NCBI RefSeq assembly: GCF_947077775.1
Contig: NZ_CAMTTE010000001.1
Location: 2,136,501-2,200,500 of the forward strand
Direction of reading: 5' to 3'
Source of the DNA: Salinibacter pepae
GTDB taxonomy: Bacteria; Bacteroidota; Rhodothermia; Rhodothermales; Salinibacteraceae
DNA: 64,000 nt
The notes beneath the pieces were generated by a model. The model was not told the DNA's origin and searched no databases. It worked only from the letters and a program-made list of their open reading frames with translations. Of the stretch, positions 20,049 through 48,954 are shown one piece after another (position 1 is the first letter of the stretch; every line of letters begins with the position of its first letter). Position numbers and translations under genes: made by a program.

Positions 20049-20246
20049 TTACTCCTGGGTGATCGTCGCGGTGTTGCCGGAGCCGTTTTGGGTAGTTAAT
20101 CGGGCGATGCGGGCGTCGTCGTTGTCGCCGTACTGGGCGATGGAGGTATCACTGTTCTAGCCTGCCGCGACGCCGACGGAAAGCAGGAAAGACAAGGTGG
20201 CCATCAGGGCCTGCAGGACAATCGAGACCGACAGAGAAAAGAACAT
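20049..20246 (-). pseudogene. Miniature curlin gene with an in-frame TAG
   Basis: ATG 20246 opens a signal-peptide-like start (MFFSLSVSIVLQALMATLSF...) that meets TAG at 20157-20159 (codon 30). The same frame then continues for 35 codons with curlin repeats (SDTSIAQYGDNDDARIARL; NGSGNTATITQE) to a stop at 20049. Frame agreement across the stop shows one short gene broken by a nonsense change, unless amber is read through. It lies between a curlin gene and tRNA-Asn. Confidence 0.7.
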
Positions 20247-20295
20247 GGCGTCTGGTCAGTTGTGAGCCGGATTTGAGAAAGACCCTTTTCAACAG

Positions 20296-20367
20296 CTGTG
20301 AGGGGCGGACTCGAACCGCCAGCGATCTGGTTAACAGCCAGACATTCTGCCGTTGAATTACCCCACA
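20296..20367 (-). tRNA. tRNA-Asn (GTT)
   Basis: 72 nt, full cloverleaf on the minus strand: acceptor TGTGGGG/CCTCACA (one G-T), D stem ATTC/GAAT, anticodon stem TCTGG/CCAGA closing loop CTGTTAA with anticodon GTT, five-base variable loop, T arm GGCGG-TTCGAGT-CCGCC. Discriminator G; CCA is not encoded. It lies between curlin genes and is an authentic elongator tRNA by structure. Confidence 0.93.
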
Positions 20368-20421
20368 GGGTTGCACCAGGGGCGTGGGCCCCGGTGCTGA
20401 TATCGTAGAAGTGAAGTCGAG

Positions 20422-23411: not shown

Positions 23412-23828
23412 CTACGGAATTGTGCGCCGGACGCGGACGCTGTCGATTAGCGTTTCGGCCCGGCGCACGCGGAGGTGTAGGGTGAGGGTGTCACCGGACT
23501 GGACGTTAACCTGGGTCGTCGAGAGGGTGTCGGCCTGGCCGGGGCCCGTTGCGAAGGCGCCGGACTGGGTAGTCTGCGTGGTGCCGGCCGTGCCGCTGCG
23601 GCGGAGGGCCAGTTCGTAGCGCAGCGTGTCAGCCGGCACGTCCGCGTTCACGAACACGCTCTGCACGCGCATCTGGTTGCCGATGCGCTCGGTGTGGATC
23701 TGGGCGCCGGTGCTGTCGTCCGGTGTGGTCGCGCCTTCACCTGAGGAATCCGCCGTGAAGCTGAGTCCACACAGGAGGATGAGCGTGAGGACTTCCAAGG
23801 GGCCTCCGGCTGAAGGTGCGCTGTGCAC
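23412..23828 (-). CDS. csgH: CsgC/CsgH-like curli assembly protein
   Basis: Periplasmic Ig-like protein; in the CsgC/CsgH family these hold curlins soluble and block premature amyloid formation. After a hydrophobic segment (LTLILLCGLSFT), the domain reads QMRVQSVFVNADVPADTLRY, 'YELALRRSGTAGTTQTTQSGAF', then alternating strands ending RVRRAETLIDSVRVRR; the 'YELxxRxSGxxGxxxxxQSGxF' pattern is that of CsgH. The start is uncertain: GTG 23828 is used here; TTG 23798, preceded at close range by GGAGG, is a good alternative. The long in-frame extension to 23948 overlaps the neighbouring curlin gene and is unlikely. Confidence 0.7.
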   Translation of the reverse strand: MHSAPSAGGPLEVLTLILLCGLSFTADSSGEGATTPDDSTGAQIHTERIGNQMRVQSVFVNADVPADTLRYELALRRSGTAGTTQTTQSGAFATGPGQADTLSTTQVNVQSGDTLTLHLRVRRAETLIDSVRVRRTIP

Positions 23829-23889
23829 GTCTCGACGGGCTGGACTGGAGATGGGGGGGAGGAGAACGCTGCGAGCGTGTGCCCTAATT

Positions 23890-24720
23890 TCAAGAGCCGA
23901 GGTCAGCGGGAAGGGGTGTGCCTCGGAGAACGACCATCTCGATGCCATTCCCGTTCATCTGCACGTCGACGGGGATGTTCGTCTCCAGGCTGTTGCCGTT
24001 TCCATTCTGAACGACATTCGTGCGGAGGGACAGGCCTTCCGGATCGAGGTCCTGTGTGTCCATCAGGAAACGGTTCGCGTCCCCATTCTGGATCAGGTTC
24101 ACGGTTTGGTTCCCCACGAGGCGGATGCCGGCCGCGTTTCTCGAGCCGAGCTGCGTGATGCTCGTTCGGCTTTTACTACCGCTGTGCACGGCCACGGCCA
24201 AGTTGTCGCTCCCCGAGCCGGTGGGGCTGACGTCCTGGGCCTTATCAAATACCTCGCCAGCAGACGCGCCCTCAGAGAAGCCGTCGCTGAATGACGGATC
24301 GCCGCCGCCCTGCGTGATCACCGTCTTGTTGCGGTCGCCAACCTGCGCGGCTGAGGCCCGGTTGTTCGTGCCGACCTGCTCGATGGTCGCGGCGTTCTGG
24401 TTTCCGTCCTGAACGATGACCGCGCTGTTTCCTGCAACGTCGGGGAGACGAGGCACCGAGACCCCGAGGCCCATCGTCAAGTTCTCCACCTCCGTTCGAC
24501 TCACGCCGCCTTCGTCCTGGACCACGAAGATTTGGGACTGCGTGGCGCTCTCGACCTGTTCGGTCGTGGATTCGACCTGCTCGACCTGTGCCGGTTGGGC
24601 CTGCACTCCGACCGGGCCGAGGGCCCCTGCGCCGAGCAGGCAGACCGCCAGGCCGAGGAGGACCAGGAGGCTCGCCGACCGGCGAGTCGCCGAAGAAACG
24701 GACGGCAGAACGAAGCGCAT
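23890..24720 (-). CDS. Curlin-repeat protein (paralogue of 19180 protein)
   Basis: 276 residues from ATG 24720; upstream in-frame codons read through the tRNA-like gene and are rejected. Signal peptide hydrophobic core LLVLLGLAVCLLGAGAL, then a repeat-poor segment (QVEQVESTTEQVESATQSQ) with tandem Val-Glu-Ser/Thr units and VVQDEGGVSRTEVENLTMGL. Curlin repeats start near residue 105 (SAVIVQDGNQNAATIEQVGT; NNRASAAQVGDRNKTVITQG) and a non-repeat tail ends MNGNGIEMVVLRG, nearly matching MNGNGIKLVIRRG in the 19180 protein. A likely minor subunit (CsgB-like nucleator?), role inferred only. Confidence 0.87.
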   Translation of the reverse strand: MRFVLPSVSSATRRSASLLVLLGLAVCLLGAGALGPVGVQAQPAQVEQVESTTEQVESATQSQIFVVQDEGGVSRTEVENLTMGLGVSVPRLPDVAGNSAVIVQDGNQNAATIEQVGTNNRASAAQVGDRNKTVITQGGGDPSFSDGFSEGASAGEVFDKAQDVSPTGSGSDNLAVAVHSGSKSRTSITQLGSRNAAGIRLVGNQTVNLIQNGDANRFLMDTQDLDPEGLSLRTNVVQNGNGNSLETNIPVDVQMNGNGIEMVVLRGTPLPADLGS

Positions 24721-24786
24721 GGAGAGTAGCAACCGTGTGGAGTAGCTGATTCTCGTCTCGAAGAACAGGTGTGACTGGTCTAACTG

Positions 24787-24860
24787 CTGTGGGGGGCGGA
24801 CTCGAACCGCCGGCCTCCAGGCCGAAGGGCCCGGCGTTCTGCCGGTTGAACTACCCCACA
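24787..24860 (-). tRNA. tRNA-like gene with no normal anticodon loop
   Basis: 74 nt on the minus strand with perfect acceptor (TGTGGGG/CCCCACA), D stem (GTTC/GAAC) and T arm (GGCGG-TTCGAGT-CCGCC), nearly identical to tRNA-Asn at 20296 in these parts. The anticodon arm instead reads CCGGGCC-CTTC-GGCCTGG: a 7-bp stem (one G-T) with a four-base loop, or a 5-bp stem with an 8-base loop lacking T33. If forced to a 7-base loop the triplet would be TTC (Glu), but the fit is poor. Possibly a decayed tRNA-Asn copy or a tRNA-like RNA. Confidence 0.6.
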
Positions 24861-24925: not shown

Positions 24926-25789
24926 TTACTCAGCCTGCTGCGTTACATTAGCAGTGTTTCCGCTACCATCGACATCGATCTGCGTGAAGTTATTTGAAGA
25001 GGACGCAGGGTCGCCGGGGAATCGCGCACCTTGTGTGACATCGACGGTGTTAGTTCCGCCGTCAATATCGACGAACGCTCGATTATTGAATGCCGTGAAG
25101 TTCCCCTGGAGCGCGTCCACAGTATTTCCACTGCCGTCAATTTCGACGTCCAAGATTTGGGGATTAAGATCGAAGCCTGAAGTTGCAGACTTCTGAAAAA
25201 ACTCCACGGTGTTGTCGCTTCCGCTAATGTCGAAGTCAGCCTTGGACTGCTGTTGTTCAGCAACAAGCTCAATTCGGTTTCTATCACCGACGATATCTGC
25301 GTACAGCTTTCCTCCCTGTTGGCTAGTCACTCCGCCATCAGGATTCCCGAGGAAGTTATCATCTCCCTCCATCCTGACGTCCAGAAAAGACTCGAATATC
25401 TTTTCGTTTCCTCCCTGGGCTACTCCCACGTAGTTACGATCGCCAATCTGATCAATTTCTGCTTCAGCTCGGAAGTCGAAAGCTCCGAAGGAGCCACCTT
25501 GGGTTGGGAGCCGGACAGTATTATTGTCCCCATCCTGCAGAACATCGGCGATGTTACCATCATCTCCCGACTGATCTACCAAGCCAAGATTACCGGATCC
25601 AAGCTGCTCAAACTGAGCGAAGTTATCGTCGCTCTGTTGATCAATTTGAGCAAAGTTATTGGCGTCGTCTGGATCTACATCACCCGGTGCCTGATCTATA
25701 AACGGTCCCTCCTGTTGCCCAAACGCCACCCCCGCCGTAAAGACGAAGGCGAGGGCAAACGTCGCGGTAATTCTGAGAAGTTGTCTCAT
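24926..25789 (-). CDS. Curlin-like repeat protein
   Basis: 287 residues from ATG 25789, giving the signal peptide MRQLLRITATFALAFVFTAG with cleavage after AFGQ; the GTG at 25906 would add an unconvincing leader. The mature chain has imperfect Asn/Gln/Asp/Gly repeats (NNFAQIDQQSDDNFAQFEQL; GSGNLGLVDQSGDDGNIADV; GSGNTANVTQQAE), many in a 'D-x-D-G-x-x-N-T-V' variant richer in acidic residues than the 20422 protein. It fits a curli subunit adapted to high salt. It lies downstream of csgE-csgF-csgG on the same strand, with a 970-bp gap between. Confidence 0.83.
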   Translation of the reverse strand: MRQLLRITATFALAFVFTAGVAFGQQEGPFIDQAPGDVDPDDANNFAQIDQQSDDNFAQFEQLGSGNLGLVDQSGDDGNIADVLQDGDNNTVRLPTQGGSFGAFDFRAEAEIDQIGDRNYVGVAQGGNEKIFESFLDVRMEGDDNFLGNPDGGVTSQQGGKLYADIVGDRNRIELVAEQQQSKADFDISGSDNTVEFFQKSATSGFDLNPQILDVEIDGSGNTVDALQGNFTAFNNRAFVDIDGGTNTVDVTQGARFPGDPASSSNNFTQIDVDGSGNTANVTQQAE

Positions 25790-26758
25790 GGGTGTAGGCG
25801 TGATTGCGTTCAAGAGAACGAAGTCGCGTGGTGAAGCACCGGGCACGGCGATGTGCCCGGCGCGAAACCCTGCAGCGCCCATGAGATACCGGTGCAGTGT
25901 CTTCACTCGCGTGAAGGCGCTACAGGGCGCTCGGAGGCCGGAGTCCGCTCATCCCGGCAATTTTGCTTTGAGACACTGCACCAAATGACTTCAGTTCACA
26001 ATCAACGAAAGCGCTCCCATCCCCACGTCATACTGAGCACGGGACGGGGGTGCATTTGGGGATTGTGCGGCCCCGTCTTTCGGAAATATAGCCTCGTGCT
26101 GATAAAGAACACCCAGCACGGGCGTGGCCTTTCCAACGGATGATGAAGGCGGCGCATGCCGACTGTGCGGCCGCTTCGGTGGTGGAGAGAGGAAAAAGAG
26201 GAAGGAGTCTGGGGACATATTCCCCCAGACTGGTGGTTGAGGGGCTCTCCCTGAAGAGATGCGTGGAGGAGCAAGTCGGGAGTCAGTATATTACGAGATG
26301 GGCATTTTTGGGAGTGGCCGACGGAAGCAGACTGCTCCATACGCCAAAAGTGGAGTCCCAACTGTCCTCGGGCCCAGCGTTCGGAACGACGAGGTCGAAG
26401 TGCGGCCTTTTGCTGCTAGCGCCCTGCCGCACGAGAAAACGGCTGCGGTTGGGGCGGTCTGCGTGACGACGGCCAACACCCCCATGCGCGGCAGATCGGG
26501 CTGCCGGAGGGCCGTGCGGCGATTGGCCGGTACTCACACGGGGGAGCCTACAAGAATTGGTTCCCGAGGGGATCGGGCCGCGTGCACGACAGCCCCAATA
26601 TCTCTCAAGACGCGTTACGCCGCGGACCGTCGATCGCCGTGGACCGTCGATCTATGTAGGTCGGACTGCGGCCTGCGGCGCGACTCTTGGGAGATCGGTG
26701 GACGGCCGACCATCGACCGCGAAGCAGAGCGTTGCGCGGCGGCCTGCCGACCCACCCG
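25790..26758. other. Intergenic gap between csgG and the curlin genes
   Basis: Nearly 1 kb with no gene of recognisable family. It has a direct repeat cggaccgtcgatc near 26626/26642. It must contain the promoter of the 24926 curlin gene. Confidence 0.5.
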
Positions 26759-28126
26759 TCAGAAGTAGTACGTAATGCCGGCGCTGCCGCCCCAAAGGCT
26801 GTCGTTGAAGCTGCCCACGTCCTCGTTGTCCAGGGCGTCGTCCGCCGTGTAGCGCACGTCGAAGGCGGCGCTCAGCCCTAAGTCCGCGCTCACCATATAC
26901 TCTACGCCGAAACTGCCCCCGCCGAGGATCGAGGCAGTGTCGGTGAGGCGGTAGGGCTCGGGAAACTGCGTCACCACCCCGCCGGTCGCCCGCAGGAACG
27001 GCGTAAACCGGGCGCGCGGCGCAAAGTAGTACGTAAGGTCCAGCTCCGACGCGAGCACCAGTTCTCCAAAGTCACCGGCCGCACTGACGCGGCCGACGGT
27101 GTTGGTGAGCCCCAAGGCCCAGCGCGGCGACAGCGGCTGCCGGAGGGCCAGGGTGCCGGACGGGTTGAACGAGGAGCCCTGCACGTCCCCTTGCAGAATG
27201 TTGCCACCGCCGCCCACTTCCAGGCCGAAGCCGGAGCGGTTATCCGGTTGCAGCAGGCGGTCGAAGTAGTCGCGCCGGGTGGCCCGCTCTCTGCCCTCCT
27301 CGTAGCGCTCGATCACGTTCCGCGCCGCCGCCGTGTCCGCTGGAGAGAAGAGGCCGTCGCGCATGCCCTCAATGGTCAGTTGGCGCACCGCGGCGTCGAT
27401 GGCCTCCGTCACGGCGAGGGTCTTCGGCTCGTTGTACGAGATGCCGGCCTCCGCCTCCAGAAACAGGTTTGGCGCGACGAAGCGGGTGGCGTTTCCCTGC
27501 AATTGCTGCGAGATGATGGTTTTGGTGGTGTGGACGGTCTTCAGCACCTCGCCCGTCTGGGTGGACACGGCGCGCAGGTAAACCGTGACTTGATTCCGGC
27601 GGTACTCCCCGGAGCCTCCAATGGAGAAGAGCCGGAAGCCCCCCCCACCGGAGATCACGTTCGAGTCGAACCCGATGATGCCGCCCTCCAGCAGGATGCC
27701 GGCGAAGAGGAGGGGGGAGAGCGACTGGGCCTGGTTGCCCTCGTACTGCTGGCGGATGGAGCGGATGATGTCCCGCTCCTGGGTGAGGTTCGAGAGCCCT
27801 TTCCGCTCGATGGGCCGGAACCAGTCGGAGTCCGCGAGGGCGTCCATCAGGATGGCGGTCCCCCCCTGCGTGACGGCCCGGGAAAAGGTGGAGCCGCGCT
27901 CTTTGCGCTTGTACTGGCCCGTCTGGTCGCGAAACTGGTACACGGCGGTTACGACCGGACTGGCCGGCTGGGGGAGCGTCGTCATCGAGTCGTGGACGGT
28001 ACTCTCGATGCCCGGGTGGGCATCCCGCGTCTCAAACGCGGGATCCATGGAGGCGCACCCTCCCAGGAGGAGGACCGTGCCGGCAAGAAACGCAACGAGC
28101 GTGACAGGGAAAAGTCGGCGGTGCAT
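26759..28126 (-). CDS. csgG: CsgG curli secretion channel with extra C-terminal barrel-like domain
   Basis: Outer-membrane lipoprotein that forms the curlin export pore. From ATG 28126: hydrophobic LFPVTLVAFLAGTVLLLGGC with lipobox and Cys24, then the CsgG domain (VVTAVYQFRDQTGQYKRKER; LFAGILLEGGIIGFDSNVIS; QVTVYLRAVSTQTGEVLKTV; FLEAEAGISYNEPKTLAVTE). E. coli CsgG is 277 residues; here the CsgG-like part ends near residue ~290 and about 165 residues follow: a glycine-rich linker and amphipathic strands typical of an eight-strand OmpA/OmpW-like barrel (FGLEVGGGGNILQGDV ... GSAGITYYF), ending in Phe as outer-membrane barrels do. It is followed (3') by curlin genes and preceded by csgF. Confidence 0.9.
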   Translation of the reverse strand: MHRRLFPVTLVAFLAGTVLLLGGCASMDPAFETRDAHPGIESTVHDSMTTLPQPASPVVTAVYQFRDQTGQYKRKERGSTFSRAVTQGGTAILMDALADSDWFRPIERKGLSNLTQERDIIRSIRQQYEGNQAQSLSPLLFAGILLEGGIIGFDSNVISGGGGFRLFSIGGSGEYRRNQVTVYLRAVSTQTGEVLKTVHTTKTIISQQLQGNATRFVAPNLFLEAEAGISYNEPKTLAVTEAIDAAVRQLTIEGMRDGLFSPADTAAARNVIERYEEGRERATRRDYFDRLLQPDNRSGFGLEVGGGGNILQGDVQGSSFNPSGTLALRQPLSPRWALGLTNTVGRVSAAGDFGELVLASELDLTYYFAPRARFTPFLRATGGVVTQFPEPYRLTDTASILGGGSFGVEYMVSADLGLSAAFDVRYTADDALDNEDVGSFNDSLWGGSAGITYYF

Positions 28127-28417
28127 CGGTGAGCGGGTAAAGAGGGGCAAGGCGTACAGCAACTGTGGAAGCGGGTATTGCGCCGCGTGCGGAAGGCGAT
28201 AGGGCCACAAAGGCACCTTTAGGCACGCGTGTCTACGTGGGGCAAATAACGGACCAGGACTCCCATTCCCAAGATGCAGGAGAGAGCGTTGGCCTGCACG
28301 CGAGGGAACCCGCCCCAGCCAACGCGGCATGCGCGCCGGGAGACACCCTCCCAAAAAGAGATTGGAATCGTTCAGGCAGGAGGATGCCTCCGTTGGTCGA
28401 GCGATCCGCTTTAGGGG

Positions 28418-28938: not shown

Positions 28939-29697
28939 TCAGTATACCTCTCGGGGCTCATAGAATTCCTGGAGGTAGTACCGCGTTCGGGCCGCAGCCT
29001 GCCGGGCTGCCTTTCGGATCCGTTGGTATTCCGGGCGAAGCTGGGCCTGGAAGAGAGTGGTCCCCTCCACGGAGACCTGAACCTTGGACCCAAACTGAGG
29101 GAGGGGCTGCTCGTCGATGCGGATCGTGAAGCTGGATACGTCCTCCGGCTCGGTCCAGTGGTCGTTGAACGCGTCCTGAAAGTCCCGACCAATTACCGAG
29201 TGGGTCCGGTCGATAATGAGGCCGGCGACCGAAATTCCCTTCTTCACCCCAGTCGACGTTGCCCCGGCCGACTTTGTCCCGGCCGATTTCGCTCCGGCCG
29301 ATGCTGCCCCAGTCGGCGTACCACCCGAGGGTGAAACAGGTCGGTTCCGTGCCGCTTCCCGCGTGGAAGAACTTGCCGACGAGGGAGCCGACTCGGATGT
29401 AGGATCGTCTTCGTCTGTCACAAGCTCGGCTTCCGCGGCAGGGGCCGGTTCGCTGGCCTCAGCTGCAGCAATGGGAGCACCCGCCTCCTCCTCCGCCCGC
29501 ACGACGAGCGTGTCAAGTTGTTTTTCGTAAACTACGACCACCGGATCGGCGTCCGCAACGTAGACTGTGTCGTCGTGCACCGGAACCGTGTTGTTGTGCG
29601 CCGGTGGTGCGACGTTCGGTGACGCGTTTATGGAGGCAGCTCCTCCGATCCACGAGAGAAGCAGGAGGCCGAGCACAAGTGCTGACGGTCGTTTCAC
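28939..29697 (-). CDS. csgE: CsgE periplasmic curli adaptor with long linker
   Basis: The C-terminal ~95 residues are a CsgE domain (GLIIDRTHSVIGRDFQDAFN; ... SSFTIRIDEQPLPQFGSKVQ; 'YQRIRKAARQAAARTRYYLQEF'), the adaptor that caps the CsgG ring on its periplasmic side. The start is set at GTG 29697 because it gives a signal peptide at once (KRPSALVLGLLLLSWIGGAA); an in-frame GTG at 29820 is the longer alternative. Between the signal and CsgE domains is a ~130-residue acidic and Ala/Ser/Thr-rich linker with a tandem GAKSAGTKSAGATS stretch; E. coli CsgE is about 129 residues in all, so this linker is extra. First gene of csgEFG. Confidence 0.88.
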   Translation of the reverse strand: MKRPSALVLGLLLLSWIGGAASINASPNVAPPAHNNTVPVHDDTVYVADADPVVVVYEKQLDTLVVRAEEEAGAPIAAAEASEPAPAAEAELVTDEDDPTSESAPSSASSSTREAARNRPVSPSGGTPTGAASAGAKSAGTKSAGATSTGVKKGISVAGLIIDRTHSVIGRDFQDAFNDHWTEPEDVSSFTIRIDEQPLPQFGSKVQVSVEGTTLFQAQLRPEYQRIRKAARQAAARTRYYLQEFYEPREVY

Positions 29698-29820
29698 CGG
29701 CACAGCAGGCGTATTACTGACGAATGCTTTGCTGTAGGTACCATATCGGTTTTCGACTTTCGGGTCCAAAGCAATTCGGAGAACACCCTTCCAGTTCCCG
29801 ATCTTTGTCTTCACGGCCAC

Positions 29821-47151: not shown

Positions 47152-48954
47152 ATGAACACATTCAGCGACCTCCTCAAGTACCTGCGCATCTACCGCCGCT
47201 ACCTCGGTCGGCGGATGTACTTCATCTTTGTCCTGACGCTGGGATCGGCGTTGGCGTCGGCCTTCGGCATTACACTGCTCCTGCCCCTGCTTCGCGCTTC
47301 GCAGTCGGGCGGTGAGGGGATGGAAGACATGAGTACCGCCGAGCAGTACCTGCAGGCCATGCTGGAGGCGATGGGCATCGCCGACTCAATGGTCGGCATT
47401 CTGGCGTTTATCGCGGTCGTATTCGTCGCGAAAGGAGTCCTCCAGTTTGCAAAAGGGGGCTATCAGGGCTACCTACGGGCCCAGCTCCTGCGGGAACTCA
47501 AGACGCAGCTTTTCGACGCGTACAGCGGGATGGACTACCGCCATTACATCCGCAAGAACACGGGGCACTTCATCAATGTCATCAACGGGCAGGTCAATCG
47601 GTTCTTTGCGTCGTTCAAGAGCTTTGTCGACTTCCTGACGCAAGTCGTGACGACGGCGAGCTACTTTGGTTCTGCGTTTGTCGTCTCGTGGACATTCGCG
47701 AGTATGGCACTGGGGGTCGGGCTCGTGCTCCTTTTCTGCTTCAAGTACCTGAATGCGTACGTGCGGCGGCTCTCGCGCCGGCAGTCCGACGAGATGAGCG
47801 AGCTCAACAAGCTCCTCGTGCAGGCCCTGCAGGGCCTCAAGTACATCGTCTCCACGAACCAGATTGCCCATCTGCGCAGCGGGGTCGTCGACAGCGTAGA
47901 TCGGCTCACCGGGTACATCTTTCGGCAGAACGTGGCGCAGGCGTTCACACGGGCGGTCCGAGAACCGGCCTCGGTTCTCCTCATCGTGGGCCTCATCATT
48001 CTACAAGTGGCCGTCTTTAACGACCCGATCGCGCCCATCTTCGTGGCGCTCCTGCTCTTTCACCGCGGCATGCAGGCAATGATGTCGGTGCAAGGGGCGT
48101 GGCAAAGCACCATGAACAAGATTGGAGCCGTGGAGATGGTGGACGGCGAGTTCGATACGGTCCTGTCGCACCAGGAAGACCGGGACGGCCGCGTCCTCCG
48201 CGCCCTGTCGGAGGGCATCGACTTCGAAGGCGTGCACTTTGCCTACAACGAAGACGACGGCGACGTGCTACACGACGTGAACGTTACCGTGCCCGCGAAT
48301 GAGACGGTGGCGCTCGTCGGAGAGTCCGGGGCGGGGAAGTCGACGCTCGTCGACATGATGACGCTGATGCTCTCGCCCCAGGCCGGCACGATTCGCGTCG
48401 ACGGCATCCCCGACGACGAGGTGGACCTCGCCGCGTGGCGCGACCAGATTGGCTACGTCTCCCAAGAGACGGTCGTATTCGACGACACGGTGGCCAACAA
48501 CATCAGCCTCTGGCAGGGGGACATTGAGGAAGACCCGGCCCTGCGGGAACGCGTCATCCACGCCGCCGAACGGGCCCACGCGCATCACTTCATTCAGGAC
48601 TTGCCGAACGGATACCAGACGCAGGTCGGGGACCGCGGTGTACGCCTCTCCGGCGGGCAGCAGCAGCGCCTCTTCGTGGCGCGGGAGCTCTTCAAGGAGC
48701 CGAACCTGCTGCTGCTCGACGAGGCGACGAGTGACCTGGACACGGCCTCGGAGCAGCACATCCAGAACAGCGTCGACGCCCTGCAGGGGGAGGTGACGGT
48801 CGTGATCATCGCGCACCGGCTCTCGACGGTGAAAAACGCGGACCGCGTCTATGTGCTCGACGACGGACGGGTCATTGAGTCCGGCACCTACCACGAGCTG
48901 CGGCACCGGGAGGAGGGGGCCTTCCGCGAGATGGTGGAGATGCAGAGCTTGTAG
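47152..48954 (+). CDS. MsbA-like ABC exporter (fused permease and ATPase)
   Basis: 600 residues, half-transporter working as a homodimer. About six membrane helices in the first ~330 residues, starting MYFIFVLTLGSALASAFG. The ATPase has Walker A VGESGAGKSTLVDM, Q-loop DQIGYVSQETVVF, signature LSGGQQQRLFVARE, Walker B NLLLLDEATSDLD and H-loop IIAHRLSTVKNAD. It could flip lipid-linked oligosaccharide, in place of or beside a Wzx flippase; no Wzx is visible in the window. Substrate is inferred from the surrounding glycan genes. Confidence 0.95.
   Translation: MNTFSDLLKYLRIYRRYLGRRMYFIFVLTLGSALASAFGITLLLPLLRASQSGGEGMEDMSTAEQYLQAMLEAMGIADSMVGILAFIAVVFVAKGVLQFAKGGYQGYLRAQLLRELKTQLFDAYSGMDYRHYIRKNTGHFINVINGQVNRFFASFKSFVDFLTQVVTTASYFGSAFVVSWTFASMALGVGLVLLFCFKYLNAYVRRLSRRQSDEMSELNKLLVQALQGLKYIVSTNQIAHLRSGVVDSVDRLTGYIFRQNVAQAFTRAVREPASVLLIVGLIILQVAVFNDPIAPIFVALLLFHRGMQAMMSVQGAWQSTMNKIGAVEMVDGEFDTVLSHQEDRDGRVLRALSEGIDFEGVHFAYNEDDGDVLHDVNVTVPANETVALVGESGAGKSTLVDMMTLMLSPQAGTIRVDGIPDDEVDLAAWRDQIGYVSQETVVFDDTVANNISLWQGDIEEDPALRERVIHAAERAHAHHFIQDLPNGYQTQVGDRGVRLSGGQQQRLFVARELFKEPNLLLLDEATSDLDTASEQHIQNSVDALQGEVTVVIIAHRLSTVKNADRVYVLDDGRVIESGTYHELRHREEGAFREMVEMQSL

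Follow-up and report, generated by a model that had tools for sequence, protein, structure and literature searches.

A tRNA-shaped, non-decoding RNA between two curlin genes of Salinibacter pepae, a candidate mRNA-processing element

What is a gene with the shape of a transfer RNA (tRNA), lacking a normal anticodon loop, doing between two genes for curlin, an amyloid-fibre protein, in a curli operon? The question is raised by a 64,000-nucleotide stretch of the halophile Salinibacter pepae (contig NZ_CAMTTE010000001.1, positions 2,136,501 to 2,200,500, here called the window), in which such an RNA, named u1, is encoded on the minus strand. It is preceded by a hairpin, and the pair of hairpin and tRNA part, which we call the element, is present in the window twice; the second tRNA part is named u2:

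24787..24860, minus strand: tRNA-like RNA u1, 74 nt, with intact acceptor, D and T arms and a non-decoding anticodon arm
24817..24834, minus strand: anticodon arm of u1, CCGGGCCCTTCGGCCTGG, which from sequence and fold energies forms a 5-bp stem with an 8-nt loop or a 7-bp stem with a CTTC tetraloop
24863..24896, minus strand: hairpin directly upstream of u1, diverged in sequence, folding as 14 bp with one bulge, in a position matching the hairpin of the other elements
20296..20367, minus strand: paralogous u2, a canonical tRNA-Asn(GTT) flanked by curlin A2 and curlin B2 (ARAGORN and Rfam; 118.5 bits with the covariance model R1, see below)
20373..20397, minus strand: hairpin upstream of u2, GCACCGGGGCCCACGCCCCTGGTGC

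By its fold, u1 is a tRNA. The Rfam tRNA model RF00005 matches it over its complete length (model positions 1–71, cmscan) with 50.7 bits, against a gathering threshold of 29, although this is the weakest of the 45 tRNA matches in its 3.6-Mb genome. ARAGORN labels positions 24786–24860 of the minus strand 'tRNA-??? (tt)'. Both results bear out the original prediction, which had placed a tRNA-like gene without a normal anticodon loop at 24787–24860. The acceptor (TGTGGGG/CCCCACA), D (GTTC/GAAC) and T (GGCGG/CCGCC) stems are intact, and the tertiary core is kept (U8, A14, G18G19 and the T loop TTCGAGT), as is G73. The cloverleaf, the 7-bp acceptor and the core bases are thus all present, and no version of the element lacks any of the tRNA stem pairs.

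The anticodon arm does not follow this pattern. A 5-bp stem, CCGGG/CCTGG, surrounds an 8-nt loop, CCCTTCGG, with a C at position 33 and no U33, while a decoding tRNA has a 7-nt anticodon loop with U33. Covariance alignment, which had been named as a check, recovers no canonical loop, but the same 8 nt between the strands of the 5-bp stem. The two shapes proposed earlier, an 8-base loop without T33 or a 7-bp stem with a CTTC tetraloop, both fit: the cloverleaf with the tetraloop has a free energy of -37.5 kcal/mol, within 0.2 kcal/mol of the minimum free energy fold at -37.7 kcal/mol, and the cloverleaf with only 5 bp reaches -30.9 kcal/mol. The anticodon GUU of tRNA-Asn is absent from u1, but present in u2 and in the element of Salinivenus lutea.

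Some apparent peculiarities of u1 are ordinary. It does not encode CCA, but only 5 of the 45 tRNA genes of the genome do, so that CCA addition is normal there and its absence is no sign of a pseudogene. An 8-bp acceptor, extended by a C-1:G73 pair, is no special feature either, since pairing between N-1 and N73 is possible in 27 of the 45 tRNA genes. With the 8-bp branch not distinctive and no long variable arm, u1 is not a tRNA-Sec or an allo-tRNA with an extended acceptor.

Differences from tRNA-Asn had been expected to be confined to the anticodon region. When u1 is compared with u2, this is true of the acceptor and T arms, which differ at one base only, but not of the remainder: 11 of 65 positions outside the anticodon loop differ. 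An A-U pair of the D stem is replaced by G-C in a compensatory manner, u1 has one additional base in its D loop, and the two variable loops are largely different. The tRNA-Asn at 20296–20367 is a second copy of the hairpin and tRNA element, not an unrelated neighbour. The element is not a recent copy of the host tRNA-Asn, which it matches at only 48–51 of about 75 aligned positions. That canonical tRNA-Asn, located elsewhere in the genome, is 100% identical across nine members of the genus, and its presence makes decoding by the element dispensable.

The hairpin is located a few nucleotides 5' of the tRNA part in all six distinct versions of the element, placing a stable structure just upstream of the putative cleavage site discussed below. 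Its usual form is GCACCGGGGG..CCCCCGGTGC followed by AACCC, with a conserved GCACC..GGTGC hairpin, and the hairpins of plasmid pSR84 and Salinivenus lutea are identical at 27 of 28 positions. The tRNA part begins after AACCC/TTC and no T-run is present, so the hairpin is not a standard intrinsic terminator; a search for promoter- or terminator-like matches at the A–B junctions of both units of the window found none. Nor is it a genome-wide repeat, as the exact pattern is restricted to the curli element, apart from one unrelated site in each of two genomes.

To follow the element in other genomes, a covariance model of hairpin plus tRNA (R1) was built and scanned over 114 Rhodothermales genomes. 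Elements score 112–130 bits (112.2 for u1 and 118.5 for u2), a copy at a contig end in a further Salinibacter species (G012) scores 93 bits, and the next-best match is an ordinary tRNA at 76 bits; outside the genus, no match in these genomes comes near the element level. At the same place and on the same strand between curlin genes, the element is found in the genome studied here (G000, twice), on plasmids pSR84 and pSR67, in Salinivenus lutea (G004) and in S. iranica (G003). In G012 it directly follows curlin A and the contig ends inside it. The closest plasmid matches, on pSR84 of S. ruber M8 and pSR67 of S. ruber RM158, are in unannotated sequence between two curlin genes. Within the genus, four of the five curli-bearing genomes contain the element, the operon of the fifth (G011) being broken before the junction, and none of the eight genomes without a CsgF match contains it. 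It is absent from all 15 curli operons of other Rhodothermales genera, near which the tRNAs are ordinary and not between curlin genes. A match on an Aneurinibacillus plasmid turned out to be an ordinary tRNA-Asn. Searches of open-licence papers found no publication on the element.

The anticodon loop is the variable part. Salinivenus lutea, like u2, has the canonical Asn loop CTGTTAA, the plasmids have CCTCGG, and S. iranica and G012 have CAGTACC, in which U33 and the GUU anticodon are lost; together with u1, non-decoding loops of 6, 7 or 8 nt are present in four of the six distinct versions. Sharing of CAGTACC by S. iranica and G012 (L041/L061 and L040/L069) may reflect convergence or exchange. 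Within one genus, canonical and non-decoding versions occupy one site of the operon, and together they catch the step from a working tRNA gene to a structural RNA that no longer decodes.

Hairpin and tRNA fold are conserved in five hosts. Over the six sequences, 98.9% of pair cells form, and four pairs, in the D stem, the anticodon stem and the hairpin, have changed on both sides. The covariation score is matched by none of 500 shuffles, and sliding the partners removes the signal. The most informative comparison is between u1 and pSR84. Their loops have a common derived CC..UC.GG state, unlike tRNA-Asn, which places the loss of decoding before their split, and the loops differ by one 2-nt indel. 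Fisher tests on the anticodon loop overstate this divergence, and the comparison of flanks is relied on instead. The tRNA parts are identical at 71 of 74 positions, while the 60-nt flanks on both sides are identical at a fraction of 0.47–0.56, versus 0.49 for shuffled flanks, and the adjoining curlins share 29% (A) and 53% (B) protein identity. The shape has thus been maintained beyond the loss of decoding. A DNA transfer whose breakpoints coincide exactly with the two ends of the tRNA part could mimic this pattern, but seems unlikely. In a degenerate tRNA pseudogene, changes would be scattered regardless of pairing; the compensatory changes and the 71/74 identity after loss of decoding do not fit this. 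The original prediction had left the choice between a decayed copy and a non-decoding RNA that retains the tRNA shape, and had named conservation in related genomes as a check; related elements with non-decoding loops do lie at the corresponding site of the operon in other species and on plasmids, with stems kept by compensatory changes, and the comparative evidence favours the second option. The curli operon, the upstream hairpin and the kinship of the nearby tRNA-Asn, as a paralogous element in a second curlin A–B pair, were no part of that prediction. Judged by these comparisons, the element is a real, conserved, non-decoding tRNA-shaped RNA, to be described as a pseudo-tRNA or a tRNA-like processing element.

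What could the shape be for? An explanation to which we give about an even chance, reasoning from sequence comparisons, is that hairpin and tRNA-like RNA form one cis-acting mRNA element, processed like a pre-tRNA, which would separate the curlin A from the curlin B mRNA. The element would descend from a tRNA-Asn gene and form part of the curli transcript, in which it would lie between the two curlin sequences. RNase P would cut at the 5' end of the tRNA fold and RNase Z after the discriminator base; recognition of the fold by these tRNA-processing enzymes would be the reason for its conservation. The cut would split the transcript, leaving the curlin A mRNA with a GC-rich 3' hairpin that may block 3' exonucleases and freeing the curlin B mRNA, so that the two amyloid subunits could be made in different amounts. 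As another tRNA-Asn is present and decoding is not needed, the anticodon loop might have drifted or closed into a rigid hairpin. In the curli operon of plasmid pSR66 of S. ruber M1, which lacks the element, a strong intrinsic terminator follows curlin A (L087 12320–12365), as if the A–B junction needed a 3'-end device. A gap of about 1 kb extends from the terminated curlin A of this operon to the next gene.

Some observations fit this processing role less well. With only six distinct sequences, the covariation counts are small, and two of the six versions (u2 and Salinivenus lutea) retain a canonical tRNA-Asn and may do no more than decode. The odd loop is exactly the same in S. iranica and G012, whose elements otherwise differ (8/56); free drift does not predict this. 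For the pSR84 version, thermodynamic folding favours a different structure over the D and anticodon arms, leaving only the acceptor and T arms firm. RNase P needs little more than acceptor and T arm, and conservation of the D arm is thus not fully explained.

Other explanations share parts of this evidence. A redundant tRNA-Asn gene may have fallen into an ancestral curli operon as a passenger and be in the course of being lost, its shape persisting by recency or chance. A redundant tRNA-Asn is indeed present elsewhere in element-carrying genomes, the anticodon is lost in four of six copies, and the element is absent from the 15 operons of other genera and from pSR66. We nevertheless consider such decay improbable, because the loss of the loop predates the split of u1 and pSR84, yet 71 of 74 positions are kept between flanks at shuffled identity; moreover, when ten substitutions are placed at random outside the loop, 0.06% of trials leave all 21 pairs intact and 0.006% leave both the pairs and the tertiary core intact, and the hairpin, which is not part of the tRNA, is conserved too. 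At the opposite extreme, the element could still decode, either with an odd loop (an 8-nt frameshift suppressor or a shifted anticodon) or through canonical copies supplying the Asn-rich curlins. The GTT tRNAs of u2 and Salinivenus lutea and the 8–9% Asn content of curlin A would agree with this, but the loops of relatives are of 6, 7 and 8 nt, four of six versions have no U33, and the same four have lost the GUU determinants of asparaginyl-tRNA synthetase, making continued decoding very improbable.

Between these lie two ideas that we regard as equally unlikely. In one, lineages exchange curlin A cassettes, and the hairpin and tRNA part are retained because they supply the common 3' breakpoint or a target for an integrase. 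The DNA of Salinivenus lutea and S. iranica is 91% identical until the curlin A signal peptide ends, loses this identity over mature curlin A and resumes it at the first base of the hairpin; relationships are discordant, with the pSR84 tRNA nearest to u1 and the pSR84 curlin B nearest to B2; and islands of S. ruber are often flanked by tRNAs (PMC6060240). Such an anchor would need sequence identity rather than pairing, but the stems change in a compensatory way and the u1 hairpin has diverged and still folds. Beside the element neither an integrase gene nor a duplicated attachment site came to light, in the absence of a systematic search. The anchor may have acted in addition to processing, and the element may mark, or be, a recombination boundary. 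In the other idea, the element yields a processed, trans-acting tRNA-like small RNA of about 74 nt, a regulator, decoy or aminoacyl donor outside translation, for which the pseudo-tRNA tRNA-Other of Bacillus cereus is a precedent (PMC3399842). The complete tRNA core described above and G73 would suit this, as would normal addition of the unencoded CCA. However, this leaves the conserved upstream hairpin and the fixed site between curlin genes unexplained, and the loops, being variable, offer no constant sequence for antisense pairing or recognition.

The proposed processing by tRNA enzymes has parallels. RNase P cuts some bacterial mRNAs (PMC11143913), and that review cites Li and Altman 2003 and Alifano 1994 for tRNAs in mRNA operons and RNase P-cut bacterial mRNAs. 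As in these, a tRNA or tRNA-like fold would be the processing point of a polycistronic transcript; known operon tRNAs decode, however, or the mRNA folds resemble tRNA only partly, while the element is a former tRNA gene keeping its fold without decoding. In vertebrates, the tRNA-like mascRNA, downstream of the 3'-end structure of MALAT1, is excised by RNase P, which sets the upstream 3' end (PMC10869381). The element resembles MALAT1/mascRNA and NEAT1/menRNA in having a non-decoding tRNA-like RNA directly 3' of a 3'-end-protecting structure, protection here being putative. It differs in its location in a bacterial protein-coding operon, in having a GC hairpin instead of a triple helix and in that cleavage is here only proposed; the two are not related by descent. 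By analogy, it may tentatively be seen as a bacterial counterpart: a tRNA gene that became a dedicated cassette for mRNA processing, made up of a protective hairpin and a tRNA mimic without decoding function, which would determine the proportions of the two amyloid subunits and move together with exchangeable curlin cassettes, on chromosomes as well as plasmids. If cleavage takes place, it would mean that a tRNA mimic plus a hairpin can be recruited in bacteria to punctuate a protein-coding mRNA, in the manner known for MALAT1 in vertebrates, and a means of setting curli subunit ratios would be suggested. The tRNA-Other of Bacillus cereus is likewise a bacterial tRNA-like element outside translation and is proposed to belong to a larger RNA (PMC3399842). 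It carries a Trp anticodon and adjoins a genomic island, unlike the element with its varied non-decoding loops, upstream hairpin and fixed site between curlin genes; pseudo-tRNAs of the tRNA-Other type are marked by a lack of association with polysomes and by poor aminoacylation. Intrinsic terminators after curlin genes (pSR66 of S. ruber M1, G065, G063, G076) likewise place a GC-rich hairpin soon after the gene, but the hairpin of the element has no T-run and is followed by a tRNA or tRNA-like RNA.

The operon around the element reads, on the minus strand, csgE, csgF, csgG, curlin A1, u1, curlin B1, a csgH-like gene, a gene for a carboxypeptidase-regulatory-domain protein, curlin A2, tRNA-Asn(GTT) and curlin B2:

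28939..29820, minus strand: csgE (open reading frame), PF10627
28418..28858, minus strand: csgF, PF10614, 99% identical to pSR84
26759..28354, minus strand: csgG, PF03783, 94% identical to pSR84; open reading frame, the true start may be internal
24926..25789, minus strand: curlin A1, PF07012 (Curlin_rpt), stop codon about 65 nt before u1
23890..24720, minus strand: curlin B1, PF07012, start about 66 nt after u1, set by the signal peptide MRFVLPSV..
23412..23948, minus strand: csgH-like open reading frame, PF21112 at 23.5 bits, under the curated cut-off of 27; 80% identical to an annotated plasmid CsgH
20422..21492, minus strand: curlin A2 of the second unit, PF07012
19180..19977, minus strand: curlin B2 of the second unit, PF07012

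Between csgG and curlin A1, a hairpin with a T-rich tail, AGTCTGGGGGAATATGTCCCCAGACT, is located at 26206–26231 of the minus strand and is possibly an attenuator. The region 20050–20250 (minus strand), between u2 and curlin B2, contains an apparent broken fragment of curlin repeats with internal stops. Mature curlin A has seemingly been swapped as a cassette when Salinivenus lutea (L060 8278–9168) is compared with S. iranica (L061 7931–8676), DNA identity being about 90% on both sides. Further along the window, between positions 48001 and 60000, the G+C content falls to 0.50–0.54, compared with about 0.62 around it, and this region may be an island.
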